Source: a virus. From it: a stretch of 34,448 bases of DNA. Position 1 is the stretch's first letter. The number at the start of each line of letters is the position of its first letter. Under the pieces are notes generated by a model, which was not told where the DNA came from, ran no database searches, and saw only the letters and a list, made by a program, of their open reading frames with translations. The position numbers were made by a program, and so were the translations under genes. The DNA lies in the IMG/VR virus record IMGVR_UViG_3300047172_000306, positions 1 to 34,448 of that record; one strand, given 5' to 3'. Below, piece after piece: positions 6,186 to 33,468 of the stretch.

Positions 6186-6194
6186 CCCACTCCC

Positions 6195-6232
6195 CTTTCA
6201 AAATGCAAAAGCCGCCCTAAAATCATGGCGGC
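6195..6232 (-). terminator. Rho-independent terminator-like hairpin before the fibre gene
   Basis: Six-bp G+C arms GCCGCC (6211-6216) and GGCGGC (6227-6232) with a 10-nt loop. On the minus strand they are followed by TTTTGCATTTT. The T-rich tract runs straight into the Shine-Dalgarno sequence of the fibre gene, so it would end upstream transcripts or attenuate fibre expression. Confidence 0.7.
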
Positions 6233-6280
6233 GCGAACCAACTTTAGTGGTAGACTGCAGGCGAGTCACTGGAGCACTTC

Positions 6281-6628
6281 ATGAACACAACGACGCGCCT
6301 CGCAACCTTCTTCACCCGCATGACGCTTGTTGGGCTGTTCACTGTACTGTGCTTTGCCGCGTACAGGTTCACCGCTTCAACCCTCAAGTCAAAGCCCGAT
6401 TACTTCGCCCTTGCCGCGCAGGCGCGTGCTGCCTCACCCGCCCTTCCCAACCGCTTCTCTTTGTTGCCCGGCAATGCTGATCTTGCCTTCGACACTGTCA
6501 CTGGCCAGCGCTGCCGCACTTGGGACTGGGGCATTCCCCACTCCACCCTAAATCCACCGCTCTGCAGTGATCTCGCTACCGCTGCGCGAACCCTTCCGGC
6601 GTCAGCTTCCCACCAAACGCATGATTGA
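6281..6628 (+). CDS. Single-pass membrane protein in moron-like position
   Basis: A 115-aa protein with a short polar N-terminus, one hydrophobic segment (about residues 14-29, MTLVGLFTVLCFAAY) and a C-terminal domain ending in a Cys/Trp-rich motif (FDTVTGQRCRTWDWG, then PLCSDL). TGGAG lies about 8 nt before the ATG. It is on the plus strand inside an otherwise minus-strand late operon, divergent from the fibre gene and overlapping the 3' end of the large virion protein by 53 bp. That layout fits a moron, a separately transcribed gene expressed from a prophage. I do not recognise a defined family; the D-x-x-TGQ-x-C-x-TW motif is reminiscent of small acidobacterial membrane proteins. It could be a lysogenic conversion or exclusion factor, but this is inference only. 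Confidence 0.6.
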   Translation: MNTTTRLATFFTRMTLVGLFTVLCFAAYRFTASTLKSKPDYFALAAQARAASPALPNRFSLLPGNADLAFDTVTGQRCRTWDWGIPHSTLNPPLCSDLATAARTLPASASHQTHD

Positions 6629-7262
6629 AAGCGTCGTGCGCCGTCGGACCGCCGAAGCTGAACTGACCCGGCGCCGCGTAGCGTGAATCCTGACCGAAGG
6701 TCCTGAACGCCTGGCGCACCGCGTTCGGATTCTGTGCCAACACGCGCATCATCTGCTGTGCGGCCGGCGAAGGATAATCCCCAAACAAACTCTGCTGATT
6801 CAGGTAGTCGTCCACGCCGATTCCGCTTGCCGCCATCGCCGCATGCTCCTTGATCGCGCGGCGCACCTCCGGCAAAACGTTCCACTCATCTGATCGCGCA
6901 CCAAGTCCCGCCAGGTCGCCGATCGAGCCGGTCAGCTTCGCCATCACATGTTTCGGTGCCGCGTCCATCACCGCCGGATCATCAATCGCCTTCCCCAGCA
7001 GCGCCTTCTCGAATACCCGCTTGCCCTCCTCGGTCATCCCGCCCGTCGACGTGTCTACAAACTGCGGGCGTTCGGCCGAGGTCAGCACCCCGTCCGCCAG
7101 CATGCGCTGCAGGAAGGCGTTCGACCGCTGCGGATGGCTCAGCACGTCGCGCAGCGAGCCGCCGCCGGTCTCATCGATCATCGATTGCACCGCGTTCAGC
7201 GTCTCGGGAGAGATGCTCTTGCCCATGCTCACTGCGCGCTCCGAGCCGCCCATGGCTCCCAT
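6576..7262 (-). CDS. C-terminal part of large DdrB/ParB-like virion protein (after frameshift)
   Basis: A 228-aa frame that continues the upstream 1032-aa protein after a one-base phase change near 7260. Features such as LTSAERPQFVD, GGMTEEGKRVFEKALLGKAIDDPAVMD and the following amphipathic helices match the part that normally follows the DdrB-like ParB-superfamily domain in large phage polyvalent proteins. It lacks a good Shine-Dalgarno sequence, and its ATG lies inside the coding frame of the upstream part, which favours one split protein over two genes. The last 53 bp overlap the opposing membrane-protein gene. An alternative is a genuine separate gene translated by coupling. Confidence 0.65.
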   Translation of the reverse strand: MGAMGGSERAVSMGKSISPETLNAVQSMIDETGGGSLRDVLSHPQRSNAFLQRMLADGVLTSAERPQFVDTSTGGMTEEGKRVFEKALLGKAIDDPAVMDAAPKHVMAKLTGSIGDLAGLGARSDEWNVLPEVRRAIKEHAAMAASGIGVDDYLNQQSLFGDYPSPAAQQMMRVLAQNPNAVRQAFRTFGQDSRYAAPGQFSFGGPTAHDAFNHAFGGKLTPEGFAQR

Positions 7263-13534: not shown

Positions 13535-16500
13535 TCAGAACGCCCCCCGCACCGGCGTCATCAGGTCCGGCCGGCAACTCACAATCAGCTTCGAAATCTG
13601 CCACCAGCTCGGCGCACCGGCAGACGCGGGCTGTCCGGCTATGCGGAACGCGGCACGGTTCGCCAGCACATTCAACCCGCATTCCAGATCAAACTGAGAG
13701 GTGCCCGCCAGCGCCAGCGTCATCCAGGGCGTGCCGACCATCGCATTGCCCAGGCTGTTTACGTACGGCGTCACCTGCAGCTGCCCCACACCCTCGCCAT
13801 TCAGCGCAAGGTACGGAAACATCTTGCGATGAGAGCCAATTTGCTTCGCAGCCTCGTCGTCCGAACCTGCAAAAAAGTACGTCGTATAAAACGCTGGGAT
13901 CAGCCCGCTGTCGTCGTCCAAGCCCAGTTGATCGTTCATCAGCTTGTACGCATTCGCGCCGCTGAAAACGATCGGGAAAGATCCATCCGGAAGCGTCAGG
14001 TTGCCCACAAACGTGCCACTCTGCGACCACGTTGTCCACTTGCGCACGATGTCGGTCGAGATCACCTTGCCCGAGAGTGACACATGCACTGGCGAGTTTG
14101 AATCGATCTGCGAAGCCGTCGTCAGCTCGCGATAGTCCATCACGTAGTTGAATGCGCCTGCCGCCGTCTGCCCAACCGTGTATACGCGCCGGTTGATGGT
14201 GTCGTTCGCCATCACCACCAGCTGCGGCGACGTAATGGCCTCCCATAGCGTCTCCACTTCCTGCGAGATCTTGAAGACCTCGCCGCCCTCGAACGCCCGT
14301 TTTCCCGTATCGGACGCCCACGCAAACCACGTCTCGCCCGTCACGCTGCCCCACACCGAGATCCCGCCGCACTTGCGCGCGATCGCATCATCCAGTCCGC
14401 CCCAGCTTGCCGGCTCCGAGCCCGTCGAGCTCGACGTCTCATAGAGCGCCCCATCCGGCCCGCTGGTCACCAGATACAGGTTGCCGCGCAGCTTCTGCAT
14501 GAGTCGAATGCCATTCGCATCCGCCGCCGGACCAATATTGCCCGTCACCCCGTCAAACGCTTCCGGATTGTTCACGTACGACGCGCGCGCGAACTTCACA
14601 TACGGGTTGGCCGTGTAGTAGATAAAGGTCTCGTCCAGCGTCACCGTACCATCCGCCGGCAAACCCTTCGCATAGACGCGCAGCAGCGTGTCCGGAGTGA
14701 TCGTTACCGGGGTCAACGCGGAAAACAGCGCTTCGAGGAAGCTCCCCGCCGAGGCCGCGGCCGCGATCGTCGCTGTCGCCAGCACGCCACTCGCGTTGTA
14801 GAACTCCGCACACACCGTGCAGGCCGCCGACGCTTCCACCCAAAGATGAAACGTATACTGCGTCGCCGGCTGCCCGATCGCTACGCCCAGCCCATCTGCA
14901 TAGACGTTCTGCGAGATCCGGCCGAGCTCGTTCGCGCTGCCATCGCCAGTAATCTGCCATGCCCCGCCAGCATCGACCGTCATCGGCGATTGCACCAGCG
15001 CGCCCCCGGCGGTCTCGATCGTCCAGCCCAGCGGCTGCGTCGGCGCGGACGCATAATAACCGCCGTCGAAACCCATATTGATCAAGTTGGGCAGCTTGTT
15101 GCGCTCACCCCACCAGAACATCCTCGAACCGTAAGCGAACACGCCCAGGCAAGGTCCTAAAACTCGCTGCTGAAAGAGATTGTTCCCCGGGATATCAATC
15201 GCTGCCGCTGCAAACAGTGAGTTATCGCTGAAGTCAAGCAGTGCCGAGGTGGTCGTGTTATCTGCAATGCGCGTCGACGTCGAAACACGCTGCCCGTTGA
15301 TCATCGCCGGCACCGGCAGATAGAAGTAGTTGCTGCCGCCCGCTCCGGTAAGCGCGAGGATACGCGCCACCACGTTCGGCGGGCCGATCGGGATATTCGA
15401 GATGGTCAGATACTGTCCGCCATTCGCATACACCACTGTCGGCGGCGAGGGTGCCGTCAGATAGCCCTCGCGTGTCTCAAAAACGCACACGAGGCTGTGT
15501 TGCCCAGGCGCAATCTGTCCCAGCGGCGTCAGCGTCGCCGAGCCCAGGCTTAGAGTCGCATCCGGGCCAGGCTGCGCGTACTGCAGCGTCGTCGAAGAAG
15601 GTACTGCGGTCACCAGGTACGTGCCGTCCCACGCAAACGTCACCGTGCCTCCGCTCCAGGTCCCGTCCACCGAGGAAAGCGGCACCGTAAACGTCGTTGC
15701 CGTCGGACACTGCTGCACCGTGAAGTAGGTCTGCTCGACCGTAGCGTTTGCCAGCGGCCACACCAGCACAACCGTGCCGGTCGCCGAGATGCTCTCGTTG
15801 CCTGCCGTCTGCGCATAGCCGATGCTGGTGGGCGAAGGCACCGTCTGCACCGTCGTCGCATACGGAGTGCTCGTGGGACTGGTTTGGCTCACAATGATCT
15901 GCGAGCCCACCTGCAGACCGTGCGGCGAAAGCGTCGTCACCGTCGCATAATTCGAGTTGATCGTGACCGTCGCCAGGCCGCCGCCCACCGACGTATTCTG
16001 CACTCCGGAGATGTTGACCAAGTTGCCCGGCACCAGGCCGTGCGGTGCCGACATCGTCACCGTGGCTAAGCCCGGGTTGCTCTCGTTATCGACCACAATG
16101 GAGGTGATCGCGCCTCCCACGGTCACCGGCGACGTGCCCTGAATCTGCACCTGATAGCCAACTTGCAGGTTGTGCGCGGTCGCTGTGTTGGCCGTCACCG
16201 TGTTGCGGGAACGCAGCAGCATCGGCGCAATCGCCGAGACGCTCCCACCGGTGCCAACCGTACTCTGCGTTGAGAAGAAGTACAGCTCGAAGGTGGTTGC
16301 GCTGTCCACCGCGGTGACCACGGCATAGGAATTGTTGTAAAGCGTGGCACCCGTCACCGCGACCAAGCTGCCCACGTTCAATCCGTGCGGTGCGGCCGTC
16401 GCCACCAGCAACGACGTGTAGTAGGTGACAAACTGCGGCGGATTATAGGATCCACCCCCTCCGCCGCCATACTCTTCCTGATACCAGTACTGATTGCCAT

Positions 16501-17077: not shown

Positions 17078-17095
17078 GCTCAACCTCCTTTCGGC

Positions 17096-17863: not shown

Positions 17864-17864
17864 C

Positions 17865-22942: not shown

Positions 22943-23247
22943 GCCTCCTTGAGCGCCTTCACGCCCTGCTGAACCATCTGCTCGATTTCCGCGTCTTCAT
23001 ATTCGCGCCACATCTCAAACGTAAGCGCGTAGACGAAACCAAACGGCACCTTCTTCAGCCCGCCCGATCCAAGGCCGCAGCCGCCAGGCGCAGCCGAGGG
23101 GTGACGCACATCGATCAGGTACGCCAAAGCGGTAGAGGTCACTGTGCCGGTTACCCCATACAGCGGGAACAATATCTGGTCCTCGACTTCATAGAACCGC
23201 TGACCTGTATTTCGCAAAACGTCCGTCAGCTGATACTTCGTCTTCAT
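22939..23247 (-). CDS. Small head-region protein, function unknown
   Basis: A 102-aa protein. The ATG at 23247 is preceded by TAGGAGC with good spacing; an in-frame TTG one codon earlier is less likely. It has a basic N-terminus (MKTKYQLTDVLRN), a beta region (QILFPLYGVTGTVTSTALAY), a Gly/Cys-rich centre (GGCGLGSGG) and a helical acidic C-terminus (EYEDAEIEQMVQQGVKALKE). It lies between portal and the paralogous pair, with ATGA coupling to the next gene. No family is recognised. Confidence 0.65.
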   Translation of the reverse strand: MKTKYQLTDVLRNTGQRFYEVEDQILFPLYGVTGTVTSTALAYLIDVRHPSAAPGGCGLGSGGLKKVPFGFVYALTFEMWREYEDAEIEQMVQQGVKALKEA

Positions 23248-23288
23248 CAAGAGCTCCTAGCCGTCGCTGCCGGCTGCTTCTTCGCTGT

Positions 23289-25556
23289 TTACGCCGCGCT
23301 ATTGCCCGCTAGATCCTGCGCACCAACCCGGATACCCTCCTGCGACAACATCTGCAACTGCGCTGCCGGGGGCACGTCTTTAAAATTGATGGACATGCTT
23401 GCAGGCTTGCCTTGCGGTGGAGCTTGCGCGGCCTGCATGGCCTTCTTGTGCTCTAACCCATGCAGCCGCACGTTCTCAAACCCCAGAGGCTTCGCCAGCT
23501 TCATCCGCCGGCCATCCTTAGAATTCACAAACGTTACAACCTCGTCGTACTCAGCCCCATGATCGTCGTACTCCACGTCGATCGGCACCGAGCTCTTCTG
23601 GAAGTCCGTTTGATTCGGTGCTGGCACCGGAGCCGGAGGGGGCTGTCCTGGTTGCACGTTCGCCTGCGACGCCTGGTCCTGCTGCTGCCACTGCTGCATC
23701 GCCGCGTTGAACGCTTCTTCGTCTGGGATGGGCGTGGCCTCCAGCAGTTCGTCAATCTCTTCAAGCTGTTTGTCGCGCGAATCCTCCTCAGGCAGAGTCA
23801 GGTCCTGAAGTCCCCACATTTGTTTACCCAGCGCAAGGTTGTCCGGCAGCGAGAGCACCTTCATCCCCTCAGGCGTTTTGCTCACCTCGGCCGAGAATTG
23901 CTTGAACGCATTGGACCGCTCCGTCCAGCTCTGCGGAACGTTATCGTCCGGATCAGGCGACCAGCTATGCTTGCCCTCGCGCAGCGCAGCCACGTCCACC
24001 GACACCATGTCCTTCTTGCCCGCGCGCCGCGACGGCACCAGCGCCGCCACAATGCCGCTGCGGCAATCCGCCATGCAGTTCACCGCATCGGCAATCACCA
24101 TCGAGTACCACAGCGTATACGGCATCCACTGCAGACCCAGAATTCCCATTGCCTGGTTCCGCGCCATCGCAAACCCTGACGCCGTCTTCTGGTCCTCCAT
24201 CTCAGCCCCGTAGAGGCTGGGCTGCTGCCCGGTCAGAAACTGACACAGCGGGCCCTGCAGATCCTGCATGTACGCCATCATCGCCGCACTCGGCTCCGCG
24301 GCCGCCTCCTGAAAAAAATGACTTTCAGCCGACTCGTTCGCAGTGCGATCGAATGGCAGGTACATCTTCGGCTTCGACTCCTGCTCCTGAATCGCGTCGA
24401 CGTCGACCGCTTCCTGATCTACCCAGGTCGACGGCACGCCATACTCGAACGTCTCCTGGGCCAGGTTCATCATGCCGTTGAACGCTTCCTGAGCGCTCAT
24501 CATCGACTTGCCCACCGACGGCCGGTGAATCCCGTCTCCTTCGAGCGCATGCAGCAGCTTGATGCAGCCATCCATCGATTCATCCGCGTCTTCGCAATAC
24601 GTATCGCCCGCGAACGCGACGTAGCAGCCCTTTGTGAACCGCTCCTTCAACGCGGCCTTGTCTGCTTTGTCTTCGAGTTCCTCAAACGTCCACGGACGCA
24701 GCCATGTCTGCGAGAACGTTGCCATGTAGCCGGCGCCGCCGCCTTGGTTGTTCGCTTCCTTATTCATGCCCTGCGCGACCGCGATCCGGCTCATGCGGTC
24801 GAAGTCGTCATTGCCGTTCGCCGTGATGCTGTCGGCAACATCAGGAAACTTCGCCTTGAGGAAGGCGATGTCAAACTCCTTGTTACGCTGCGCGAACCCG
24901 CAATCCGCCAACACAGAGCAGGACATCGGCAAGCGCCACTCAAGCGCACCGTCGACGTCGATCATTTCGGTTGGCTGTCCTTTTTTTTCGACCGATCGCG
25001 TGTACGCGACCGCTAACCCGTCTGTCCACAGGAACCGCGCAACCTTGATCTGAATCGTTTTCGGGTTATTCGCGGCCTCGATGACGCGCTTCGCCTTCAA
25101 CGCCTCTGCGGCGGCCGTAATGTCGAGCGGCTTCTTGGGTTCGACAGGGTCCGGCGTGCACTTCGGCAGGCCCTGCGAGAACACAGCCATGAAGCTCTTG
25201 GCATAGCCCAGGTAGATGTTGAACGTCTGCCGCACCGAATCGTTATCTTCGGTACCTTTGCCCAGCGAGAGCCCATTCAGCGAGACGAGAGTCTCATCCT
25301 TCGCCGAGTACGCCAGATACTGCAGTCCACGGTAAAAGAAGCGCTGGGTTCGCGCGTCCAGCACTTGCACGCGTCGCGCCGCCATATCGCGCCTTGTTTG
25401 CATACGCACCAGGCCGAGCAGCACCTCCTGCAGATGCTTGCTCAGTGGCGCACGCTCCGTCGACTGCCCAGATGAAGGATCACCCCCTTCCAGCTGCGTC
25501 TCCTGATCCGTTTCGCCAGGCGCCGCCGCCGTCCCGCTTTGTACGTCATCCGTCAT
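23289..25556 (-). CDS. Portal protein
   Basis: A 755-aa protein forming the DNA entry/exit vertex, to which terminase docks. Support comes from its place between terminase and scaffold/capsid, its size (typical of podovirus-like portals) and the family-like order: an N-terminal disordered acidic region, a helical start (RRVQVLDARTQRFFYRGLQY), the crown/wing region with FNIYLGYAKSFMAVFSQGLP, a mid-section containing MMSAQEAFNGMMNLAQETFE, and a C-terminal Gln/Pro-rich stretch (QQQDQASQANVQPGQPPPAP). The ATG at 25556 has AAGGGTG upstream; the GTG at 25562 is less likely. Confidence 0.85.
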   Translation of the reverse strand: MTDDVQSGTAAAPGETDQETQLEGGDPSSGQSTERAPLSKHLQEVLLGLVRMQTRRDMAARRVQVLDARTQRFFYRGLQYLAYSAKDETLVSLNGLSLGKGTEDNDSVRQTFNIYLGYAKSFMAVFSQGLPKCTPDPVEPKKPLDITAAAEALKAKRVIEAANNPKTIQIKVARFLWTDGLAVAYTRSVEKKGQPTEMIDVDGALEWRLPMSCSVLADCGFAQRNKEFDIAFLKAKFPDVADSITANGNDDFDRMSRIAVAQGMNKEANNQGGGAGYMATFSQTWLRPWTFEELEDKADKAALKERFTKGCYVAFAGDTYCEDADESMDGCIKLLHALEGDGIHRPSVGKSMMSAQEAFNGMMNLAQETFEYGVPSTWVDQEAVDVDAIQEQESKPKMYLPFDRTANESAESHFFQEAAAEPSAAMMAYMQDLQGPLCQFLTGQQPSLYGAEMEDQKTASGFAMARNQAMGILGLQWMPYTLWYSMVIADAVNCMADCRSGIVAALVPSRRAGKKDMVSVDVAALREGKHSWSPDPDDNVPQSWTERSNAFKQFSAEVSKTPEGMKVLSLPDNLALGKQMWGLQDLTLPEEDSRDKQLEEIDELLEATPIPDEEAFNAAMQQWQQQDQASQANVQPGQPPPAPVPAPNQTDFQKSSVPIDVEYDDHGAEYDEVVTFVNSKDGRRMKLAKPLGFENVRLHGLEHKKAMQAAQAPPQGKPASMSINFKDVPPAAQLQMLSQEGIRVGAQDLAGNSAA

Positions 25557-25599
25557 GCTCACCCTTACCCAACCGTTGCCGCTGCGCTATGCCTGCGTG

Positions 25600-25971
25600 C
25601 TACACCGAACGCAGACTGGACAACCCTCCGTTGCCTGCGGGAGCCGGAAACGATCCCTTGGATGGCTCTGCGTGCGCCGTCGTCATCGCCGGTTTGCCGA
25701 TCGGCTTCTTCGCCAACACACCTTCGTCGCCGGGATCGCCATCCTCCTTCGCTCCAAGCGCCTCGCGCAGATGCTCCACCAAGGAGTCGAAGTCCGCATG
25801 GTTGCGGTCTTCGCCGTTGTGCGATGTCCTTAGACCGCCAGGCGTCTTATGCACCTCGACCAGCGTGTCTTCGTGCGGCTCGCCGCCCGCCTCGGGCAGC
25901 TCGTCCGGCGCGTCACCCATCTGCTTTGCCACGTGCGGATTGTTATAGTGCTTTCCCGATTTCCCGATCAT
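25600..25971 (-). CDS. Small acidic hydrophilic protein before the portal gene
   Basis: A 123-aa protein starting at ATG 25971, with GGGAGG seven nt upstream; a longer frame to 26064 is only the shadow of the overlapping membrane-protein gene. It is hydrophilic and Asp/Glu/His/Gly-rich (HYNNPHVAKQMGDAPDELPE, DFDSLVEHLREALGAKEDGD), probably partly disordered. It lies between terminase and portal, where packaging accessory proteins are often encoded. Family and function not recognised. Confidence 0.65.
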   Translation of the reverse strand: MIGKSGKHYNNPHVAKQMGDAPDELPEAGGEPHEDTLVEVHKTPGGLRTSHNGEDRNHADFDSLVEHLREALGAKEDGDPGDEGVLAKKPIGKPAMTTAHAEPSKGSFPAPAGNGGLSSLRSV

Positions 25972-26227
25972 CGTGTTGCCTCCCATCGTTCGCTCTCTCA
26001 AACTTTGCCCGCTCATCGCGGAAGGACCGCCGCACCCGAAACGCCCGCGCCGGCCGGCGCACATCAGGCTCTTTGATCAGCACGTCAAGAGCCCGGGCAG
26101 CCGTCAGATCGGGGCAGCTAAGCTCTGGACGCGCGTCCTCCCGCAACGCCCGCAGCTCACGCAGGTTCAGCACGCTTACTGCAATCGAAGCCAGCAACAA
26201 CAGCACAATCCACACCACTCCGTTCAT
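25943..26227 (-). CDS. Small single-pass membrane protein
   Basis: A 94-aa protein with an N-terminal membrane anchor (VVWIVLLLLASIAVSVL, residues 4-20) followed by a strongly charged, Arg-rich cytoplasmic tail. Its ATG overlaps the terminase stop codon (ATGA), and its 3' end overlaps the next gene by 29 bp, so translation is coupled. A membrane protein between terminase and portal is unusual. The later part of the frame could be non-conserved. Function unknown. Confidence 0.55.
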   Translation of the reverse strand: MNGVVWIVLLLLASIAVSVLNLRELRALREDARPELSCPDLTAARALDVLIKEPDVRRPARAFRVRRSFRDERAKFERANDGRQHDDREIGKAL

Positions 26228-27780
26228 CGCCGCCTCATCGTCACCGCGCCGCCGCGGCGCTTGTTCTTGTTCATAAACGCGATATGCGCCATGTGCTTCT
26301 CCGTAAAATCGCTGATCGGCGCAATCGCCTCGGCGAGCCGCACGTCGTACGGCTTATCCGCCGCGCGCTTGCCCGCGATGTAGTACACGCCGTAGCCCGC
26401 GCCCTGCAGCGGATCGTCCCCCGCAAACTCCGCGATCAGCTCGATCCGATCCTCATCCCGCGGCGCCGAGCCGATACACCCGATCAACCTCGGGCAATCC
26501 GCGGAGATCATCCATGCCGGCACCATCACCTGCGAGCCATCCGCCGCGCGTTCCCCGCCCCACACCCGCTTGCGCAGCATGTTGTACATCGTTTGCTCGC
26601 GGCCCAGCTTGTCCTTGCCGCTGTTCACCGCCTGCGGCAGCCCCGCCAGCTTCAACGCCTTCGACATCCGCGACGATACCGAGTTCGGGTTAGCCCCGTA
26701 GCTCTTCGTGCTCTGGTCCGCAAACGCATCGTGCGAAAACGGAAACGCCACAAACTCCGGCATGCTGCCATCCGAATCGCGCGACTCGGTCACGATCATC
26801 TCGGCCAGCATCTCCGGATCGTGATGCTTCACCAGCCGTTCCTTATACGTTCTCAGCACCCCAAAGTCGTCCAGGTAGTGCCAGTAAATCGCAGAATAAT
26901 GCTCGAATCCCCAGTCGCCCGAGATCCACCGCCGGTGCCACGGCTCCGGCTGCAGATACCCCGTCATCGTGCCGTCGTCGTCCACGTGACCGTAGACGTT
27001 CTCCGCCGCATCCCAGGCCCCGTAAAAGTACCCGCCGACCACGTCCCAGCTGCCATTCATCAGCGCTTCCCGGATCGCCTTCGGGTACTGCATCAGGTTC
27101 GCCAGAAACTGCGGATCGTTCGCATACACCGGGTTATCGAGGTACGTGCACGGAAAGTACCCGTACTGCCTCGGGTCGTACAGCGCACGCTGCGCGTCGT
27201 CCATCTCGTCGCACGGCTTTTTGTCGACAAACAGCCTGCGAATCCAGCCCGCCCCAATCCCGATCGGGTTGGTCGCCCCATCCTTGGTCGTGTACGGGCT
27301 CACCGGGCACCGGTTCCACGCCGAGACCGACGACCACTGCTTATACGTAAACTCCGCCATCTCGTCGTACGAGATCTTTAACCATTGACCCTGCCAGTCG
27401 AACGCATTGTGCTCATGCTGCATCGACCCAAACTGCGTCGTTGCCCCGTTCTTCCAGGTCACCTCCAGCGACGAATGATTGAAGCTAGAGTAAAGCTCCC
27501 GCGGCACCTTCTCTAAGAACCGCGTTACCAGGGTCTTGCGCAGCTTCGGCTGCGTGCGCCGCAGCATTAGCGTATGAACCTGCGGCGCGTCGGACGCGTT
27601 GAACTCCTGCGTCACGATCATGTGATCCATGATCAGCGCCAATGTCTTGCCGGGCCCGGCCGCGCCGCCCAGGCAGTTATACGGGCACGGCGACGCATGG
27701 TACATCGCCTGCTTCGGATACGGCACATACGTCTCGACCGTCTTGGCCTGGTCAGCAACAAAGCGGTCGATCCCGGTCAT
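26224..27780 (-). CDS. terL: Terminase large subunit (ATPase/nuclease)
   Basis: A 518-aa DNA-packaging motor. The ATPase domain shows Walker A GGAAGPGKT (residues 38-46) and Walker B ISYDE (136-140, Asp139/Glu140). An adenine-binding-like PYPKQ lies at 20-24. The C-terminal RNase H-like nuclease begins at WISGDWGFEHYSAIYW, where Asp289 is the likely first metal ligand. Length fits phage terminases. It follows the small subunit by 6 bp, and its stop overlaps the start of a small membrane protein. It acts with the portal to package DNA into the prohead. Confidence 0.92.
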   Translation of the reverse strand: MTGIDRFVADQAKTVETYVPYPKQAMYHASPCPYNCLGGAAGPGKTLALIMDHMIVTQEFNASDAPQVHTLMLRRTQPKLRKTLVTRFLEKVPRELYSSFNHSSLEVTWKNGATTQFGSMQHEHNAFDWQGQWLKISYDEMAEFTYKQWSSVSAWNRCPVSPYTTKDGATNPIGIGAGWIRRLFVDKKPCDEMDDAQRALYDPRQYGYFPCTYLDNPVYANDPQFLANLMQYPKAIREALMNGSWDVVGGYFYGAWDAAENVYGHVDDDGTMTGYLQPEPWHRRWISGDWGFEHYSAIYWHYLDDFGVLRTYKERLVKHHDPEMLAEMIVTESRDSDGSMPEFVAFPFSHDAFADQSTKSYGANPNSVSSRMSKALKLAGLPQAVNSGKDKLGREQTMYNMLRKRVWGGERAADGSQVMVPAWMISADCPRLIGCIGSAPRDEDRIELIAEFAGDDPLQGAGYGVYYIAGKRAADKPYDVRLAEAIAPISDFTEKHMAHIAFMNKNKRRGGAVTMRRR

Positions 27781-27786
27781 ACGGCT

Positions 27787-28407
27787 CTAGCCCTCGAGCT
27801 GCGTTGCATTGGCAAAGCGCAGCGCCTCCCGAGCCGCATGGTCCGGCCGCGGAATATGACTGATCAGCGTCACGCTTCCACCTACTTCCAGCTTGTCGCG
27901 GTACTGTGAGTGGTAGCGCATCAGCATGTCGAGCGCAACCGCCTTTGGTGCAAACTTCAACTTCTTCACTACGCCGGCCACAGCGTCGTCGCCCTTGCCG
28001 ATCGTAATCTCCGTCACGTCCATGCCAGCGATAGCTGCCGCAGCATTGTCATCGAGCTGCGTGATCGGCTTCACCGACCCATCCGCGTTCATAATCGCGC
28101 GTACATCGAAAAACGCAATCCGCGCAATCTCTTCCAGCGTGCGCTCCGCCGAGTAGTCGAGTTTCTCGACCGCTTGGCGCGATCCCGCCGCGATCATTGC
28201 CGCGATCTCGGGCCGCTTCAGCAACCGAGAACCCTGCGAGTACGCCGTCGCCTCGCTGTAACCAGCAGCGATCGCCGCCTGCGTCGCATTCATGCCATTG
28301 CCCAGGTACGCCGAGACGAAGATCCGGTATCGATCGTCCGATGCGTTGATCACCCGCACCTCGCGCTCGATTCGATTACCCGGAAACAGTTCGTCCTGAT
28401 CCATCAC
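27787..28407 (-). CDS. terS: Terminase small subunit
   Basis: A 206-aa protein recognising phage DNA for packaging. It contains the classical small-terminase helix-turn-helix pattern near residues 20-60 (FVSAYLGNGMNATQAAIAAG, then YSEATAYSQGSRLLKRPEI), followed by a helical block (AERTLEEIARIAFFDVRAIM) and a C-terminal KAVALDMLMRYHSQY motif also seen in this family. The start at 28407 gives a 10-bp gap after the upstream gene; a longer frame to 28440 would overlap it. It directly precedes TerL. Confidence 0.85.
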   Translation of the reverse strand: MMDQDELFPGNRIEREVRVINASDDRYRIFVSAYLGNGMNATQAAIAAGYSEATAYSQGSRLLKRPEIAAMIAAGSRQAVEKLDYSAERTLEEIARIAFFDVRAIMNADGSVKPITQLDDNAAAAIAGMDVTEITIGKGDDAVAGVVKKLKFAPKAVALDMLMRYHSQYRDKLEVGGSVTLISHIPRPDHAAREALRFANATQLEG

Positions 28408-28417
28408 TCTACCGGCC

Positions 28418-28726
28418 TCACAGCTTGGCAACCACTCCATCGACCGCTTGAACTACGTCGGCCTTCACAGCTTCATCGACAGAGTGCAACGCCACCTGCG
28501 CGTGGGTAATCTGCGCGTGCGCGTTCGCTCGTTCGCTGGCGATCTTCGCCTCGAACCAGTCCACTACATGATCCTTGCGAATCAGCCCCGCGTCATACAG
28601 AGCATGCGCCTCGCTCAGCAGACGCGTCTCGAGCGTCTTCGCCTTCGGCTCGAATCGCAGCCCCACCACCACGCCCACGAGTACTCCGACCAGAGCCAGC
28701 AACACCGCAATCACATAAAGAAGCAT
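28418..28726 (-). CDS. Small membrane-anchored protein next to terminase
   Basis: A 102-aa protein with an N-terminal transmembrane helix (LLYVIAVLLALVGVLVGVVV, about residues 2-22) and a charged helical tail containing AKTLETRLLSEAHALYDAG. The ATG at 28726 is preferred over 28735 because GTGGA lies at suitable spacing. It lies between the holin/tRNA-like locus and TerS. The topology (short outside, long helical cytoplasmic or periplasmic part) resembles spanin- or antiholin-type accessory lysis proteins, but no specific family is recognised. Confidence 0.65.
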   Translation of the reverse strand: MLLYVIAVLLALVGVLVGVVVGLRFEPKAKTLETRLLSEAHALYDAGLIRKDHVVDWFEAKIASERANAHAQITHAQVALHSVDEAVKADVVQAVDGVVAKL

Positions 28727-28774
28727 TTGACACATCCACGGCTATCGCCGTCTTTCTCCCACTGCTTTCGAGCC

Positions 28775-28851
28775 CGGCGGCGGCTGGATTCGAACCAGCG
28801 ATCTCGACGAGCACTCGTCTCATCGCGGCTTTACCCCTCGCCCACGCCGCC
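28775..28851 (-). tRNA. tRNA-like gene with an extended anticodon stem
   Basis: A 77-nt cloverleaf on the minus strand. The acceptor stem is 7/7 paired (GGCGGCG at 28851-28845 with CGCCGCC at 28782-28776). The D-arm is GGC/GCC with loop AGGGGTAA. The T-arm is GCTGG-TTCGAAT-CCAGC, fully paired with a canonical T-loop, and the variable loop is 5 nt (AGATC). The anticodon arm is abnormal: CGATGAG and CTCGTCG form 7 pairs (one T-G) instead of 5, around a 7-nt loop ACGAGTG with C rather than T before the central GAG. The discriminator is G and no CCA is encoded. The central GAG would read Leu codons, but the short variable loop does not fit tRNA-Leu. It may be a degraded, decoy or non-decoding tRNA. 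It lies between the holin and a small membrane gene. Confidence 0.6.
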
Positions 28852-28867
28852 CGCGGCTCGAAACCTG

Positions 28868-29335
28868 CTAACTCTTGTTCCCGACCTTGATACCGAGGAC
28901 ACTGACGCTCGAATCGCCCGGCATCGCCGAGACCTTCTGTGCCAGGTTCATCGCACTCGTGCCCAGCAACAACGTCGTAAATGCCACAGTGAACTCTACC
29001 GGGATCGACAGCGGCGTCTTATGCAGCATCGGCACCACCGCGTAGTTCCAGATCAGCAGCACCACAAACGAGTAGCCGAAGAACTTCCTCACGCCGCCAA
29101 GACCGTCATGCAGGATGTTCTGGCTTGCGTCGTTCATTTGCGTTTTCTGCAGATCGATCGACGCCGTCATCTGCGCGAGCTGTTCTTCCGCGATCGCTTG
29201 CGCGGCGGCCGCCTTCTGCACTGGGTCGGGAATGAAGTTCAGCAGCTTGCCGCCCAGCGACGCAATCGCGCCCCAGGGCGTCGCTACCGATGCCGCGCCT
29301 TCCACCGCACTCAACACATTCGGACTCGTTCCCAT
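28868..29335 (-). CDS. Holin (gene-transfer-agent 3TM-holin-like)
   Basis: A 155-aa membrane protein likely to open the inner membrane for the endolysin. The N-terminal part (TPWGAIASLGGKLLNFIPDP) is the characteristic start of the GTA-type holin family, followed by an amphipathic Ala/Gln-rich helix (40-70) and two clear hydrophobic segments (about 87-104, YSFVVLLIWNYAVVPML, and 111-127). The start at 29335 has GAGAGG upstream; the frame to 29368 only adds the shadow of the previous gene. It follows the HTH gene by 4 bp and the endolysin is two genes upstream, forming a lysis cassette. Confidence 0.8.
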   Translation of the reverse strand: MGTSPNVLSAVEGAASVATPWGAIASLGGKLLNFIPDPVQKAAAAQAIAEEQLAQMTASIDLQKTQMNDASQNILHDGLGGVRKFFGYSFVVLLIWNYAVVPMLHKTPLSIPVEFTVAFTTLLLGTSAMNLAQKVSAMPGDSSVSVLGIKVGNKS

Positions 29336-29339
29336 CACG

Positions 29340-29591
29340 TCACCTCTCGCCTTTCTCAAGCTCTGCAATCCGTCTCCGCAGGCTCTCTTCCCGTCGGCTA
29401 AACCACCACGCCATCAACTCGTACCGCGAACCCATCCCGGTCTTATCCATCAGCGAGTACACCTGGTGTTTCACCGTCGACTCACAACTGCCCAACTTGG
29501 CCGCAATCTGCTTGTTCGACAATCCTTCGCACACCAGCCCCGCGATCTCCCGCTCCCGCGGCGTCAGCTTCTCAGTCAGCGCTCCTCGCAT
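29340..29591 (-). CDS. LuxR-type helix-turn-helix protein in the lysis cassette
   Basis: An 83-aa stand-alone LuxR/FixJ-type DNA-binding domain: LTPREREIAGLVCEGLSNKQ, then IAAKLGSCESTVKHQVYSLM and DKTGMGSRYELM. It has no receiver or ligand domain. It could regulate late genes or host genes. The ATG at 29591 is proposed; a longer version starting from GTG 29645 is possible. A 20-codon leader frame with a much better Shine-Dalgarno sequence overlaps its start, suggesting coupled translation. It lies between endolysin and holin, an odd place for a regulator. Confidence 0.75.
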   Translation of the reverse strand: MRGALTEKLTPREREIAGLVCEGLSNKQIAAKLGSCESTVKHQVYSLMDKTGMGSRYELMAWWFSRREESLRRRIAELEKGER

Positions 29592-29638
29592 GGCCCACCC
29601 GCCAGCTCGCCCGGGTTCAATACATCTATCAGGCTCAT
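29576..29638 (-). CDS. Possible 20-aa leader peptide of the HTH gene
   Basis: A 20-codon frame (MSLIDVLNPGELAGGPCEER) preceded by GAGGAG with good spacing. Its stop codon falls 16 bases inside the HTH gene, so ribosomes finishing here could restart at the HTH start. A stable hairpin (29658-29682) lies immediately upstream. It may be a translated leader or an alternative reading of the N-terminus. Confidence 0.35.
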   Translation of the reverse strand: MSLIDVLNPGELAGGPCEER

Positions 29639-29657
29639 CGCACACTCCTCAACGACA

Positions 29658-29682
29658 GGGGCGACCGCCACGCGATCGCCCC
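29658..29682 (-). promoter_or_regulatory. Hairpin immediately upstream of the leader/HTH ribosome-binding site
   Basis: Perfect 7-bp arms GGGGCGA/TCGCCCC with an 11-nt loop. The stem ends 19 nt before the leader ATG, directly before GAGGAG. Confidence 0.5.
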
Positions 29683-29749
29683 ACGCATGATCAGCACGCG
29701 CCACTGGCCAAACCGCGGATCTTCCCCGAGGCTGGCTTCGCTGTGTAGT

Positions 29750-29792
29750 GTCCGGCACTTGGCCTTCGGTCCGTTACGACCTACTGCCGGAC
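29750..29792. repeat. Inverted repeat downstream of the endolysin gene
   Basis: Perfect 8-bp arms GTCCGGCA (29750-29757) and TGCCGGAC (29785-29792) enclosing 27 nt that contain a further GGTC/GACC pair, so the transcript could fold into a branched stem. It begins 14 bp after the endolysin stop codon on the minus strand; there is no T-tract, so it is not a classical terminator. The rest of the 167-bp gap (29639-29805) holds only the hairpin at 29658-29682. Confidence 0.45.
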
Positions 29793-29805
29793 GATGGCAT
29801 CTCGT

Positions 29806-30414
29806 CTAAGCTGCCTTCGCAGCCCCTGCAAACAAACTCATCGTCCACGCGTTGCGCGCTTCGAACGCCGCCACTCCTGGCATGCGCTCACACTCCGCCT
29901 CGCACGCCGCATAGTCGCCAGTGGCTAAAGCAGCGCACAGCTTATGGAATCGCAGCAGCCCTGCCAGCCCGAGGTTGTACGCCATATCAAACAGCGCCAA
30001 CTTCGCCGCATCCGGCGCGGTCGTATAGCCGCGCAGATACCGCTGCAGCGCCTGGTCCCGATCCTTCACCGCACACACCAGCAGTGCGTTCATATCCTCG
30101 TCCAGCAGCACCGGCGAGCTCTCCATCCGGTAGTGCGCCGGCAGATGACCTCTCTCCATCGTGTGCACCCGGAAGAACTCGGCCGTCACCTCGGCCAGCG
30201 TAGCCCGGCGCGTGCCCACCATGAACGGAAGCGCATCGGCATCATTCGGGCTGGCGAGCGCTCGGCCATGCGCCACCGTCACAATGCCCACCGTATCCAG
30301 GTACATCCACGGCACCAGGCCTTCCCACTGCCGCACCGCCGCCGCGCAATCGTCCAGGTACATCGGCCACTCTCCCACACGCACATACAGCCCGCGCAGA
30401 TTCACCAGCGCCAT
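29806..30414 (-). CDS. Endolysin, T4-lysozyme-like muramidase
   Basis: A 202-aa enzyme predicted to cleave peptidoglycan at lysis. The catalytic triad of the T4 lysozyme family is present with exact spacing: Glu31 (RQWEG), Asp40 (MYLDTVG) and Thr46 (IVTVAHG), matching Glu11, Asp20 and Thr26 of T4 lysozyme. The C-terminal helical domain contains LFDMAYNLGLAGLLRF, also typical. No signal peptide is seen, so it depends on the holin for access. A shorter start at 30363 (Met18, with GGGAG upstream) is possible. It lies four bases after the TM/coiled-coil gene. Confidence 0.85.
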   Translation of the reverse strand: MALVNLRGLYVRVGEWPMYLDDCAAAVRQWEGLVPWMYLDTVGIVTVAHGRALASPNDADALPFMVGTRRATLAEVTAEFFRVHTMERGHLPAHYRMESSPVLLDEDMNALLVCAVKDRDQALQRYLRGYTTAPDAAKLALFDMAYNLGLAGLLRFHKLCAALATGDYAACEAECERMPGVAAFEARNAWTMSLFAGAAKAA

Positions 30415-30418
30415 CCCG

Positions 30419-30826
30419 CTACTTATTCCGGTTCATCAACGCTTGGTCCAGCTTGTTCTCGATCCGGTCCAGCCGCCGCTTCTCATCTTCGCGCTGCTCC
30501 GTCAACAGCACGTTCTGCCGCGTCTGCTCATCCTGCGACACGTACACCTTGTCCAGGTTCGCGTTCACGTCCTCGACCACCTTGATGCGCAGCTCCGCGT
30601 TCGCCAGGCGCGACTGCATCGAGCCCATAAACCACAGGTACGCGCCTACCTGCAACGCCAGCGTCACAAACACAGCCAGCAACGTGGGAGCCAACAACGC
30701 AATCCAGTCGCGATCGCGCGTACGCCGGCTCTTCGACCCATGCGGCTCATCCACCATCCCAGCAGATCCTGCCGCCATCTCTTTGGCCCCCGCCATGCGT
30801 TTGTTCGACACCTCAACATTGCTCAA
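30419..30826 (-). CDS. Membrane protein with coiled coil, possible spanin-like lysis accessory
   Basis: A 135-aa protein with a basic N-terminus, one transmembrane helix (WIALLAPTLLAVFVTLALQV, about residues 41-60) and a C-terminal charged coiled coil (RLANAELRIKVVEDVNANL, then LLTEQREDEKRRLDRIENKL). This topology, next to the endolysin, fits an i-spanin or similar lysis accessory; the outer-membrane partner is not evident. The start is uncertain: ATG 30826 lies within about 14 nt of a terminator hairpin and has a weak Shine-Dalgarno sequence, while Met24 at 30757 is also possible. Confidence 0.65.
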   Translation of the reverse strand: MSNVEVSNKRMAGAKEMAAGSAGMVDEPHGSKSRRTRDRDWIALLAPTLLAVFVTLALQVGAYLWFMGSMQSRLANAELRIKVVEDVNANLDKVYVSQDEQTRQNVLLTEQREDEKRRLDRIENKLDQALMNRNK

Positions 30827-30830
30827 CAGC

Positions 30831-30869
30831 GAAAAAAAGACTGTGCTGCCCAGCCACGAAACAGCACAG
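30831..30869 (-). terminator. Rho-independent terminator upstream of the lysis genes
   Basis: Perfect 8-bp arms CTGTGCTG (30841-30848) and CAGCACAG (30862-30869) with a 13-nt loop. On the minus strand they are followed by TCTTTTTTTCG, the strongest T-run in the window. It follows the 144-aa gene and directly precedes the lysis genes. Confidence 0.85.
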
Positions 30870-30883
30870 CCAGCTCGCCATCC

Positions 30884-30902
30884 TCGGCCTCTTACGGGCC
30901 GA
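30884..30902. repeat. Small hairpin after the 144-aa gene
   Basis: Arms TCGGCC (30884-30889) and GGCCGA (30897-30902) with a 7-nt loop, two bases past the stop codon at 30905. It may assist the terminator that follows. Confidence 0.4.
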
Positions 30903-30904
30903 TC

Positions 30905-31339
30905 TCAATGCGTTCCCGCGTAAACCTTCACCTTCTCGACTGAACGTTCGACGAAGTCTTCAGGGCTGAATCGCCGGTTCTTCATGGCAGCATCAGCCAT
31001 GAGCTTCAACTTGCGCTCCTCACTCATCGAAGCTGTCCGCGATTCGCCCCGCAGCCCCAACAACGCCTCACGCTCCGCATGCGAGATCGCCCGCGACGAT
31101 ACCTTTGCAATCGCCTCGCACGGCACGCGCTCCAGGCTTGCCGTCATGTTGCGGCATGCGCGGTACTGGAACCCAATGATGTCTTTCGTCTCTGCATCCC
31201 GCAGCGCAACCCACTTCTCTTCACGCACCATTCGCAGGCCCTGCTCGCGCGCCACGTTGTCCAGCAGCAACTCGCCGCCGTAAGAGTACAACGTCAACCG
31301 CCGGCGCACCCGCGCCTTCGGATACCGGTTCTTGCCCAT
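30905..31339 (-). CDS. Unknown phage protein, 144 aa
   Basis: A basic protein starting at ATG 31339, where GAGGAG lies 5 nt upstream; the frame can be extended to 31453, but the extra part spans the hairpin at 31360-31390 and is unlikely to be coding. The N-terminus is Arg-rich (RYPKARVRRRLTLYSYGGEL), the middle is beta-like with EEKWVALRDAETKDIIGFQY, and the C-terminus is helical and charged (SEERKLKLMADAAMKNRRFS, then PEDFVERSVEKVKVYAG). It has its own terminator downstream and is the first gene after the 350-bp control region, so it may be the first gene of the late transcript. Not recognised. Confidence 0.7.
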   Translation of the reverse strand: MGKNRYPKARVRRRLTLYSYGGELLLDNVAREQGLRMVREEKWVALRDAETKDIIGFQYRACRNMTASLERVPCEAIAKVSSRAISHAEREALLGLRGESRTASMSEERKLKLMADAAMKNRRFSPEDFVERSVEKVKVYAGTH

Positions 31340-31359
31340 ATCGCTCCTCACACAATGAA

Positions 31360-31390
31360 GCCCGATGCGACCTATGAGGTCGCACCGGGC
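31360..31390 (-). promoter_or_regulatory. Stable hairpin 20 nt upstream of the 144-aa gene start
   Basis: Thirteen-position arms with one mismatch: GCCCG plus TGCGACC pair with GGTCGCA plus CGGGC around loop TATGA. On the minus strand the stem is followed by TTCATTGTG and then GAGGAG, so it sits in the 5' leader of the gene. It could be a terminator-like or processing element. Confidence 0.6.
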
Positions 31391-31621
31391 AGGCCGGCCA
31401 CGCGCTGGCGGAACAGGCAAAGCGTTCTCATCCACCCTGCAGCCGCACGGCAAACTTCCAGACGCACCGATGCCATGCTTTACGGCATCCTGCGCGCCCT
31501 GTTATCGCCAAGGCTCACTCCCGGTTGCGGATACCCGGAGTCACGCTGCCACTGCAGTCACACTTTGCATCCGTTCCGAGTTCGACAATGCAACATGCAC
31601 CACCGTGGAAGCAAGCTTTTC

Positions 31622-31642
31622 AACTTGCCAATCTGGCAAGTT
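31622..31642. promoter_or_regulatory. Perfect 21-bp palindrome, candidate operator
   Basis: Nine-bp arms AACTTGCCA (31622-31630) and TGGCAAGTT (31634-31642) with a 3-nt centre ATC. Perfect symmetry of this length with an odd centre is typical of dimeric repressor operators. It lies upstream of the late operon and downstream of the replication-like gene. The core TTGCCA/TGGCAA half-sites recur in the coding array at 32191-32247. The binding protein is not identified. Confidence 0.6.
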
Positions 31643-31689
31643 CCAGCAAATTCGCAAAAAATAGTTTCAACCTACCCCATTTTTCACGC

Positions 31690-32685
31690 CTACCCACCCC
31701 GATACACGCCAACACCAGCCCGCGACTGTGCCGCCAGCTTCGCCTCGTCGTACGGCCACGTCGCATCGCCCAGCCAGTGCGCCTGAGACACAAACTTGTT
31801 CGGCCCCCAAAGCCACTGGAGCACCCCTTGCGCCCTTAGCCGCCGGCACTCTGCCCAGTTCGCCGCCATCAGCCGCGCCAGTTCCTCAAGCCCCCGCCCG
31901 CCATCGGCCGGGCTGCGCCGGCGCATCTCCGCCTCGAGCGCCGCGCCCACGTCGCGTTCGAGCGCACGGCCGGTCCAGGCGAACTGCCGCATCACCCACC
32001 GCGCCGCGATTCCCCGGCAGTCCACCCACCGCGGGCCATCCGGCCGCGGATCGGCCACCGGCAATACCAGCGCCTGCGGCATCGCAATCACCCTCGCCCC
32101 CTTGGGGGCTACAGGGGGTGGCTCTGGCTCTGGATCTGGTACTGGTACTGGTACTGGTACTGGTACTGGCTCTGGATGTGGCAACAAAGGCCTATCGTTG
32201 CCAACGTTGGCAACATTGCCAACGTTGGCAACGTTGCCAACGATAGGCTCAGGAAAACCCCGCCCCGGCGGTTCTCCCGGCACCTCGCGATAGCGCTCCA
32301 CTTGCTTCGCCCGCTGCTCTTTCGAGTGACGCTGAATCACCGGAATCAACCCATTCGCAAACCGTCTGCCGTTGTTCAGCAGCCGCGTCTTGGTGGCGTC
32401 GTCGGCGTGCTCGTGCCAGTCGTGCACGATCAGGCGGTGCACCTGGTCCTCATCGAGCAGTCGCGCCGTCACCAGCGCGCGCACCAGCTCGTCCGCATTG
32501 CCGTCAAAGAACATCTCGAGCGCCAAGTCCACGTTGCTCATGCGTCCGATCGCGCCATCGGGAGCCTGCTCTGCCGTGACGTGCCACAGCGACTCCATCA
32601 GCCCGAGCGCGAACGGCGGCGCAATCCCCAGCTCGAGCGCCAGCCGCCGCGTCTTGCGATGCGTCAATGTCCCACGAAGTGCCAT
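31690..32685 (-). CDS. Phage replication-like protein with repeat linker
   Basis: A 331-aa protein. The N-terminal 110 residues (LTHRKTRRLALELGIAPPFA, then LGLMESLWHVTAEQAPDGAI, and HRLIVHDWHEHADD) have the arrangement of winged-helix/DnaD-like replication or primosome proteins of many phages. A linker of low complexity follows: GNVANVGNVANVGN, then PEPVPVPVPVPVPDPEPEP. The C-terminal 140 residues include a helical region and WLWGPNKFVSQAHWLGDATW. The start at 32685 is chosen because AGAAGG lies upstream and the frame beyond it is a low-complexity repeat. It would initiate or assist phage DNA replication; this is a family-level inference. Confidence 0.65.
   Translation of the reverse strand: MALRGTLTHRKTRRLALELGIAPPFALGLMESLWHVTAEQAPDGAIGRMSNVDLALEMFFDGNADELVRALVTARLLDEDQVHRLIVHDWHEHADDATKTRLLNNGRRFANGLIPVIQRHSKEQRAKQVERYREVPGEPPGRGFPEPIVGNVANVGNVANVGNDRPLLPHPEPVPVPVPVPVPDPEPEPPPVAPKGARVIAMPQALVLPVADPRPDGPRWVDCRGIAARWVMRQFAWTGRALERDVGAALEAEMRRRSPADGGRGLEELARLMAANWAECRRLRAQGVLQWLWGPNKFVSQAHWLGDATWPYDEAKLAAQSRAGVGVYRGG
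32138..32167. repeat. GGTACT hexanucleotide tandem repeat
   Basis: Five exact copies of GGTACT, flanked by degenerate GGCTCT and GGATCT copies on both sides (about 32121-32179). In frame it encodes the PV/PE/PD dipeptide linker. Likely to vary in length by slippage. Confidence 0.9.
32191..32247. repeat. Palindromic array of alternating 9-nt units
   Basis: Five 9-nt units at 32198-32242 alternate TTGCCAACG and TTGGCAACR, which are near reverse complements. They are flanked by CCTATCG (32191-32197) and CGATAGG (32241-32247). The whole can fold into a long hairpin or cruciform and encodes the GNVANV repeats. Confidence 0.9.
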
Positions 32686-32727
32686 AACCCTAAACCTTCT
32701 TTCGATCGCTAGTAAAGCTTTCCGGCC

Positions 32728-32754
32728 CTTGTCCGTCTTGTCCGTCTTGTCCGC
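32728..32754. repeat. Three 9-bp tandem repeats upstream of the replication-like gene
   Basis: CTTGTCCGT, CTTGTCCGT, CTTGTCCGC in direct tandem, about 43-70 bp upstream of the start codon at 32685. The placement resembles iterons. They lie in an open extension of the gene's frame and would encode KTD repeats if translated. Confidence 0.6.
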
Positions 32755-32805
32755 GTCCCGGTGTTGCCGTTGCTTTTGCGCCCGCCAATGGACCCCCAAA
32801 TAGAC

Positions 32806-32827
32806 GGGACTTATATACATGAGTCCC
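32806..32827. promoter_or_regulatory. Inverted repeat with TATATA in the loop
   Basis: Arms GGGACT (32806-32811) and AGTCCC (32822-32827) enclose a 10-nt AT-rich centre containing TATATA, between the deoxyribosyltransferase-like gene and the replication-like gene. It may be a promoter/operator or a short hairpin. Confidence 0.4.
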
Positions 32828-32829
32828 TT

Positions 32830-33285
32830 TCATAATTTCTCCGCATACCGGATTGGTTTTCCGTTCGCCACGGCGTAGTCAATCTCGCTGCGAGTGCTGC
32901 TGCCGATGTACCCGCCGATGTTTAGAACAAAAACTTCATCACAAAGGTCGATCTTGCACTTATGAAGCTCATCCAGCGCGATCTTTTCTGCGCTATCATG
33001 ACCGACACCTTCGCCGTGGCCAGCATCGGCCTTAGAGTGCGGATAGAAGCCAACGGACAGCACGATCCGTCCGGCCATCGTCTCGTCATAGTTGGCTTGC
33101 TGGAAGGCTTCATAGAATCGCGTTGAGCCACACAGGCAAACGATGAGTGGTCGAGCCTTTAGGGCTACCACTGGGTGCCAATTCACGCACGGAAACGGAG
33201 GCATATTTTGCCCGTGTTTGCCTATCTGTCGGTGCGGCCCATTGTGTTCGTATTGGCGTTTGTCGCACATGCCTAACTCGTTCAT
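32830..33285 (-). CDS. DUF4406 / nucleoside deoxyribosyltransferase-like protein
   Basis: A 151-aa protein. Residues about 45-151 show the Rossmann-type layout of nucleoside 2-deoxyribosyltransferase-related proteins: IVCLCGSTRFYEAFQQAN (first strand and loop), DLCDEVFVLNIGGYIGSSTR and SEIDYAVANGKPIRY, where the S-x-x-TRSEIDYA segment corresponds to the conserved Glu-containing motif. Such enzymes can act on nucleosides or nucleotides in phage DNA metabolism; many phage members are uncharacterised. The first 40 residues are a Cys/His-rich extension (CDKRQYEH, HRQIGKHGQ) that could bind metal. AAAGG precedes the ATG. Confidence 0.75.
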   Translation of the reverse strand: MNELGMCDKRQYEHNGPHRQIGKHGQNMPPFPCVNWHPVVALKARPLIVCLCGSTRFYEAFQQANYDETMAGRIVLSVGFYPHSKADAGHGEGVGHDSAEKIALDELHKCKIDLCDEVFVLNIGGYIGSSTRSEIDYAVANGKPIRYAEKL

Positions 33286-33288
33286 AGT

Positions 33289-33468
33289 TCAACCTTTCTC
33301 GATTCCAAGGGAGTCAAGTATGTAATTACCAAATAGACTCCCTTGGCCCACCGGCACCTGTCTCAGCCAGGGCGCATCCTTGCCGCACTTCGAGCACTTC
33401 GGCGTGCCGCCGCCAAACGTCTGCATCTTCTGCCCGCAGCCACACGTCCACCAAACCGGCTTAGCCAT
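33289..33468 (-). CDS. 59-aa zinc-ribbon protein
   Basis: A short gene encoding MAKPVWWTCGCGQKMQTFGG, then GTPKCSKCGKDAPW and a C-terminal tail ending SLGIEKG. The Cys9/Cys11 and Cys25/Cys28 pairs form a zinc-ribbon pattern. Its ATG lies eight bases before the end of the upstream 36-aa gene, indicating coupled translation. The next gene starts four bases after its stop codon. Small zinc-ribbon proteins of phages often bind DNA or act as replication or transcription accessories; the specific role is unknown. Confidence 0.65.
   Translation of the reverse strand: MAKPVWWTCGCGQKMQTFGGGTPKCSKCGKDAPWLRQVPVGQGSLFGNYILDSLGIEKG
33305..33346. repeat. 11-bp perfect inverted repeat overlapping the zinc-ribbon 3' end
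   Basis: Arms CCAAGGGAGTC (33305-33315) and GACTCCCTTGG (33336-33346) around a 20-nt AT-rich loop. On the minus strand the stem ends 19 nt before the ATG of the DUF4406-like gene, just upstream of its Shine-Dalgarno sequence. Confidence 0.75.

Follow-up and report, generated by a model that had tools for sequence, protein, structure and literature searches.

Candidate terminators and a candidate leader RNA among the start-proximal hairpins of a phage related to Acidobacteriaceae prophages

In phage lambda, the late leader consists of the promoter pR', the 6S RNA and the terminator tR', is subject to antitermination by Q and lies between the replication and lysis genes; in phage HK022, put RNA modifies the polymerase for processive antitermination. 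In T7, the T-phi terminator follows gene 10, and genes 11 and 12 are made only through read-through (PMC5592923). Similarly, phage LUZ100 has a strong terminator immediately after the gene for its major capsid protein (MCP) (PMC10134795). The start-associated sequences of cluster K mycobacteriophages (SAS/ESAS) have a 13-bp conserved site at the ribosome-binding site and ESAS arms with a consensus; the ESAS repeats, which do not favour pairing in RNA, are located in the non-structural half (PMC3203893).

Here we analysed the virus record IMGVR_UViG_3300047172_000306 from IMG/VR (G000), whose 34,448 bases we refer to as the window. Its relatives are found in Acidobacteria, which are very common soil bacteria, and a limited literature search found no paper on late gene control in Acidobacteria phages. 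Almost all genes of the window lie on the minus strand, and the integrase occupies its low-numbered end. Read leftward, the order from 33.7 kb begins with small genes and continues with a DUF4406-like gene, a replication-initiation gene (phrog_9474), a 144-aa gene and a TM/coiled-coil gene, which are followed by lysozyme, a LuxR-type HTH gene, a holin-like gene, TerS, TerL, portal, scaffold, capsid and tail, where the names TerS, TerL, portal, scaffold and capsid were assigned by size, order and relatives. A tRNA-Leu gene (anticodon GAG; 28775-28851, minus strand) separates the holin from the gene that precedes TerS. A tandem repeat at 34067-34448 (57-bp unit, 6.7 copies) reaches the contig end, and the assembly probably breaks there.

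The nearest portal and capsid relatives are Acidobacteriaceae prophages in the genomes G147, G195 and G232 (portal about 60% and capsid 68-69% identity), and the MCP gene (19359-20636, minus strand) has orthologs in a conserved head-gene order in all three. The terminase is closest (59-66%) to a separate set of contigs, some of them in bins of Granulicella or other Acidobacteria. Because terminase and portal/capsid have different nearest relatives, the window genome is mosaic. TerL (26224-28440) is about 60% identical to one Acidobacteria phage set, the portal and capsid of which are about 25% identical to those of the window; G147, G232 and G195 match the window in portal and capsid (19359-25562), with TerL only 27% identical. 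Compared with the window, G147 (L049) and G232 (L051/L052) have 3.7-6.8 kb extra between the scaffold and capsid genes. Searches of GenBank (megablast of 24 kb; tblastn of the MCP and the 144-aa gene) matched no phage, and the comparison was therefore based on IMG/VR and Acidobacteriaceae genomes.

A first-pass annotation had reported hairpins 14-29 nt upstream of six start codons and had proposed that their common geometry reflects one control layer. When we enumerated the perfect stems of at least 6 bp on the minus strand (1580 in total), five of the six were among the 13 strongest: 31390-31360 (14 bp, -27.3 kcal/mol; 4th), 19351-19325 (10 bp, -21.6 kcal/mol; 5th), 29682-29658 (11 bp, -21.4 kcal/mol; 6th), 33346-33305 (11 bp with a 20-nt loop, -19.0 kcal/mol; 8th) and 30871-30839 (13 bp including several G-U pairs, -17.6 kcal/mol; 13th). 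The sixth, near the fibre gene, is weak. A stem of -17 kcal/mol or lower ended 8-40 nt upstream of 4 of 33 curated minus-strand starts, compared with a mean of 0.14 starts (maximum 2) in 200 dinucleotide shuffles of the same upstream regions; 1.2% of random CDS positions reached this cut. With a looser cut of -12, 4 starts were found against 1.6 expected, and the excess was no longer clear. The excess of start-proximal stems over shuffled sequence on which the proposal depended is real, but it is carried by four or five very strong stems. Two of the reported positions needed correction: the stem at 30839 is 42 nt from the likelier ATG, and the one at 33346-33305 lies inside an open reading frame and not between genes. 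G+C-rich stems of at least seven pairs with a short loop were found at 31360, 30839, 29658 and 19325. T-tracts had been claimed for three of the six stems, and they are indeed there, as a full T-run after the stem at 30839 and as partial ones at 19325 and 6211, whereas none follows the stems at 31360, 29658 and 33305.

The post-capsid hairpin (19325-19351, minus strand) begins 7 nt past the MCP stop and ends 29 nt ahead of the next ATG. Ten MCP-bearing relatives, among them two with almost the same sequence, all have a stem in the interval from the capsid stop to the following gene, and 9 of the 10 stems are strong; the arms are unrelated to one another, and the layout stem-ATTTTT-AGGAG-ATG is frequent. 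Further loci were collected through capsid alignments and reduced to 66 representatives with less than 92% nucleotide identity. A stem of -12 kcal/mol or lower occurred within 120 nt past the capsid stop in 41 of these 66, a terminator-like stem right after the MCP gene as in T7, compared with 3/66 and 2/66 in coding controls, or 5/132 taken together (Fisher 1e-19). When junctions were matched for gap length (40-200 nt), stems were present at 11 of 23 post-capsid junctions and at 6 of 51 other junctions (p 0.001). Stems are likewise frequent ahead of the capsid gene (22/64). The post-capsid hairpin is conserved by position, and its arm sequence is not. At least five T within the 10 nt after the stem were found for 16 of the 41 strong post-capsid stems, and at least five A ahead of the stem for 5 of 41. 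Among 43 inverted repeats, the non-Watson-Crick positions on the coding strand were more often G-T than A-C (13 versus 5, p 0.048), which fits an RNA rather than a DNA function.

Judged from its sequence and position, the post-capsid hairpin is a predicted capsid-gene terminator of the T7 T-phi and LUZ100 type. It resembles these in lying directly downstream of the MCP gene, with downstream virion genes that would be reached by read-through. It differs in that termination in the window is predicted, in that the polymerase is presumably that of the host and not of T7 type, and in that the arms vary between relatives. The conserved position with diverging arms suggests that control of capsid dosage by termination recurs far from T7-like phages. 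Some post-capsid stems of the relatives resemble mobile host repeats: several loci (L111, L123, L129 and L137) have the stem GTCCCGGCGAAAGACGCCGGGAC...GGAATGACA in common, as a dispersed repeat would. The stems as a whole could accordingly be intergenic mobile or REP-like repeats of the host genome that happen to fold, but this is very unlikely, given that the arms in the window all differ from one another and that the leader region upstream of the 144-aa gene has its only other copy among the fetched loci in L059.

A second predicted terminator lies in the lysis cassette, after the 144-aa gene (30839-30871, minus strand), where a 13-bp stem followed by TTTTTTT makes a plain textbook case of an intrinsic terminator. 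The codon 14 nt past this stem is a TTG with no Shine-Dalgarno sequence, and the ATG at 30796, 42 nt from the stem, is the likelier start of the TM/coiled-coil gene. In the syntenic prophage of G393, the 144-aa and TM genes abut and the hairpin is missing; in G278, a stem followed by TTTTTTT is found directly upstream of the lysozyme gene. The lysis-cassette terminator thus recurs, but not at one fixed junction. Persistence of the stems in close relatives, which the first-pass annotation had made a test of its proposal, was therefore mixed: the stem at the MCP junction is conserved and the 144-aa gene has one in two of five orthologs, but the junction in G393 has none.

Attenuation or termination, one of the functions suggested at the outset, is supported for 19351-19325 and 30871-30839, but the other stems fall into different classes. 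Together they comprise predicted terminators between late genes, a stem that closes a structured leader RNA at its 3' side, a stem within a CDS and a weak stem, and one control layer of common geometry is not supported. A fixed distance between stem and start was likewise rejected, as this distance ranged from 0 to 67 nt at the gap-matched post-capsid junctions of relatives. With five strong stems 14-42 nt from candidate starts, one might envisage a single start-associated regulatory element, binding protein or RNA in the manner of the cluster K SAS/ESAS; the absence of a common sequence, the variable spacing in relatives and the location of one stem within a CDS make this extremely unlikely. 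Although both have inverted repeats shortly before some start codons, ESAS arms fit one consensus and come after a conserved site of 13 bp, whereas the six sites in the window have neither a GGGATAGGAGCCC-like site nor an arm consensus. The resemblance to cluster K that had been suggested lacks these defining points; the accompanying remark that the arm sequences differ among the window stems was correct for all of them.

The strongest of the six reported hairpins belongs to a larger structure. The replication-initiation gene is separated from the 144-aa gene by a non-coding leader of 350 nt (31340-31689, minus strand) that heads the late operon and folds with an MFE of -163.7, compared with -128.4 in shuffles (z -5.8). 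Homologs of its conserved core (31450-31562, minus strand) precede the 144-aa orthologs of G250 (L059, 1237-1351) and G278 (L058, 2067-1965). Within the core, H1 (CTGC-tetraloop-GCAG) is followed by H2, by H3 with the loop GCGANAA and by H4 (GATGCC-GTAAAGCAT-GGCATC), the loop of which starts with GTAAAG in the window and L059. The strong hairpin, H5 (31360-31390, minus strand), is the 3' stem of the leader, 60 nt past the core and 20 nt upstream of the 144-aa gene. Its lower arms are identical in the window and L059, where the homologous stem lies 23 nt upstream of the 144-aa ortholog; the two near-start stems among the five orthologs are this strong, homologous one and a weak one. The 144-aa gene (30905-31339, minus strand) belongs to a family that opens the lysis cassette of Acidobacteriaceae prophages. 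Its orthologs in G250 and G278 are about 35% identical. In these two genomes and, by gene order and in part, in G393, the region has a replication-type gene on one side and the lysis, terminase and portal genes on the other. We rejected the idea that the leader is translated and extends the 144-aa protein at its N terminus: the frame is open to a TTG at 31453 in the window and closed in L059.

Similarity of the leader between the window and L059, and between L059 and L058, each exceeded all 500 shuffles. The window and L058 compared directly were not significantly similar (p 0.11), nor was the window leader to the G393 or G095 regions. H3 is 100% paired in all three sequences and has two double changes, which are suggestive of an RNA helix, in a set of three sequences for which one shuffle control (a) reached the observed covariation score in 50 of 500 cases. 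These double changes bear on the possibility that the leader is a DNA element, such as a replication origin or packaging site. It does follow the replication-initiation gene, inside which there is an 18-bp iteron array; in the lower arms of H5, however, the window and L059 both retain a G-U pair, which on the opposite strand would read as an A-C mismatch, and together with the H3 changes this renders a DNA element distinctly unlikely. The iterons themselves (32196-32242) are palindromic copies of TTGCCAACGTTGGCAACA, 2.5 in number, and the array is a possible origin.

No family in Rfam 15 (4227 families) matched the leader at its gathering score, and no match at E<=10 was convincing. A search of 393 Acidobacteriaceae genomes with a covariance model of the leader (R1) gave high scores only in G250 and G278, both training members; the 13 weak hits were no more than chance predicts and had no relatives of the phage genes nearby. 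We regard the leader as a candidate new RNA element outside known RNA families. Folded, without an Rfam entry and placed first in the late operon, it is a concrete candidate for an RNA controlling the late switch. Like the lambda late leader and HK022 put, it is short and folded and has a strong terminal hairpin before the lysis, packaging and head genes, with predicted terminators inside the late operon, and its position and fold at the head of that operon agree with a leader of this kind; lambda has its late promoter, 6S RNA and tR' in the corresponding place. It differs from these in having no sequence match, no Q-like protein found alongside and no good T-run after H5. A speculative idea, to which we give little credence, is that it represents a new family of cis-acting RNAs in phages of Acidobacteria, an RNA antiterminator that would make host polymerase resistant to the late-operon terminators and might have a partner in the LuxR/sigma-like HTH protein or in the 144-aa protein.

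A somewhat probable reading of these data is a late operon that has a folded leader in front and leaky terminators at intervals along it. One long leftward transcript would cover the 144-aa, TM/coiled-coil, lysozyme, holin, terminase, portal, capsid and tail genes and would begin with the folded leader RNA, closing in its strong hairpin. Leaky intrinsic terminators would sit just ahead of the ribosome-binding site of the next gene, and genes past a terminator would be reached through read-through, which is needed because 14-42 nt between stem and start leave at most a little space for a new promoter. Such an arrangement would give the capsid gene a high dosage relative to downstream genes and hold the lysis and late region low until polymerase passes. 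By analogy with the lambda late leader or a put-type RNA, the leader may make polymerase resistant. We infer termination at the stems, partial read-through and leader-dependent resistance of the polymerase from this arrangement. No sigma-70-like site was detected in 15000-34448 (shuffle mean 3.8), where acidobacterial promoters may not be sigma-70-like, and the proteins scanned included no match to a Q-like family or antiterminator protein.

Counting against terminators, H5, the stem at 29658, the stem in the 59-aa ORF at 33305 and 25 of the 41 strong post-capsid stems have no T-run, and some stems may therefore be processing or 3'-protection stems. For the same reason, the main rival to leaky termination is that the stems protect mRNA 3' ends or are RNase processing sites, with the operon read through and cut beside the stems and the segments differing in stability. 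The post-capsid stem would suit this role, as it lies at the 3' end of the message for which demand is greatest. As a general account it is nevertheless unlikely, as T-runs follow 16 of the 41 stems whereas A-runs precede only 5, and the stem at 30839 has a perfect tail of seven T. From sequence features, the best classification of the stems is that they are intrinsic terminators or 3'-end stems of an ordinary kind, here in a phage group that is new.

Upstream of the MCP gene, a conserved element, GCAGGGAnnCGnACACCCTG ... CAGCAGAnCCnAAGCTGG (20673-20824, minus strand), was found at six loci, always in the capsid-gene leader: in the window, G147, G232, G195 and two prophages of G395. The two G395 prophage capsids are only 27-32% identical, yet the element is kept. 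It matches no entry in Rfam and could serve as a leader RNA of the capsid gene or as a regulatory site. Searching IMG/VR with the motif gave ten matches, about the number estimated by chance for 17 fixed bases, and only the one in L187, a contig with a related portal, looks real. Separately, a 102-aa protein (22939-23247, minus strand) resembles 32 residues of the C-terminal part of the capsid protein (34% identity; E 3e-4, from one pairwise comparison) and is a possible capsid-domain paralogue.

The remaining stems are of other kinds. The 11-bp hairpin at 29658-29682 (minus strand), which has no T-tract, lies 19 nt upstream of a 20-codon ORF that overlaps the LuxR-type HTH gene. Upstream of the fibre gene, the weak 6-bp hairpin (6211-6232, minus strand; -10.7 kcal/mol) is followed by TTTTGCATTTT, a T-rich tail, in a region that folds no better than shuffles (z +0.6). 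Beside the fibre gene, on the opposite strand, a 115-aa ORF (6281-6628, plus strand) with no family match has a putative TM segment and a Shine-Dalgarno sequence. The 11-bp stem at 33305-33346 (minus strand), upstream of the DUF4406-like gene, lies inside a 59-aa zinc-ribbon-like ORF (C-x-C...C-x2-C; 33289-33468, minus strand), which stops 3 nt ahead of the DUF4406 start and has neither phage relatives nor a Pfam family. For the DUF4406-like gene itself, no more than a 37-aa match was found. It has a stem on either side (32800-32827 and 33305-33346) with the word GTCTATTTGG in common, as if it were arranged like an inserted cassette.
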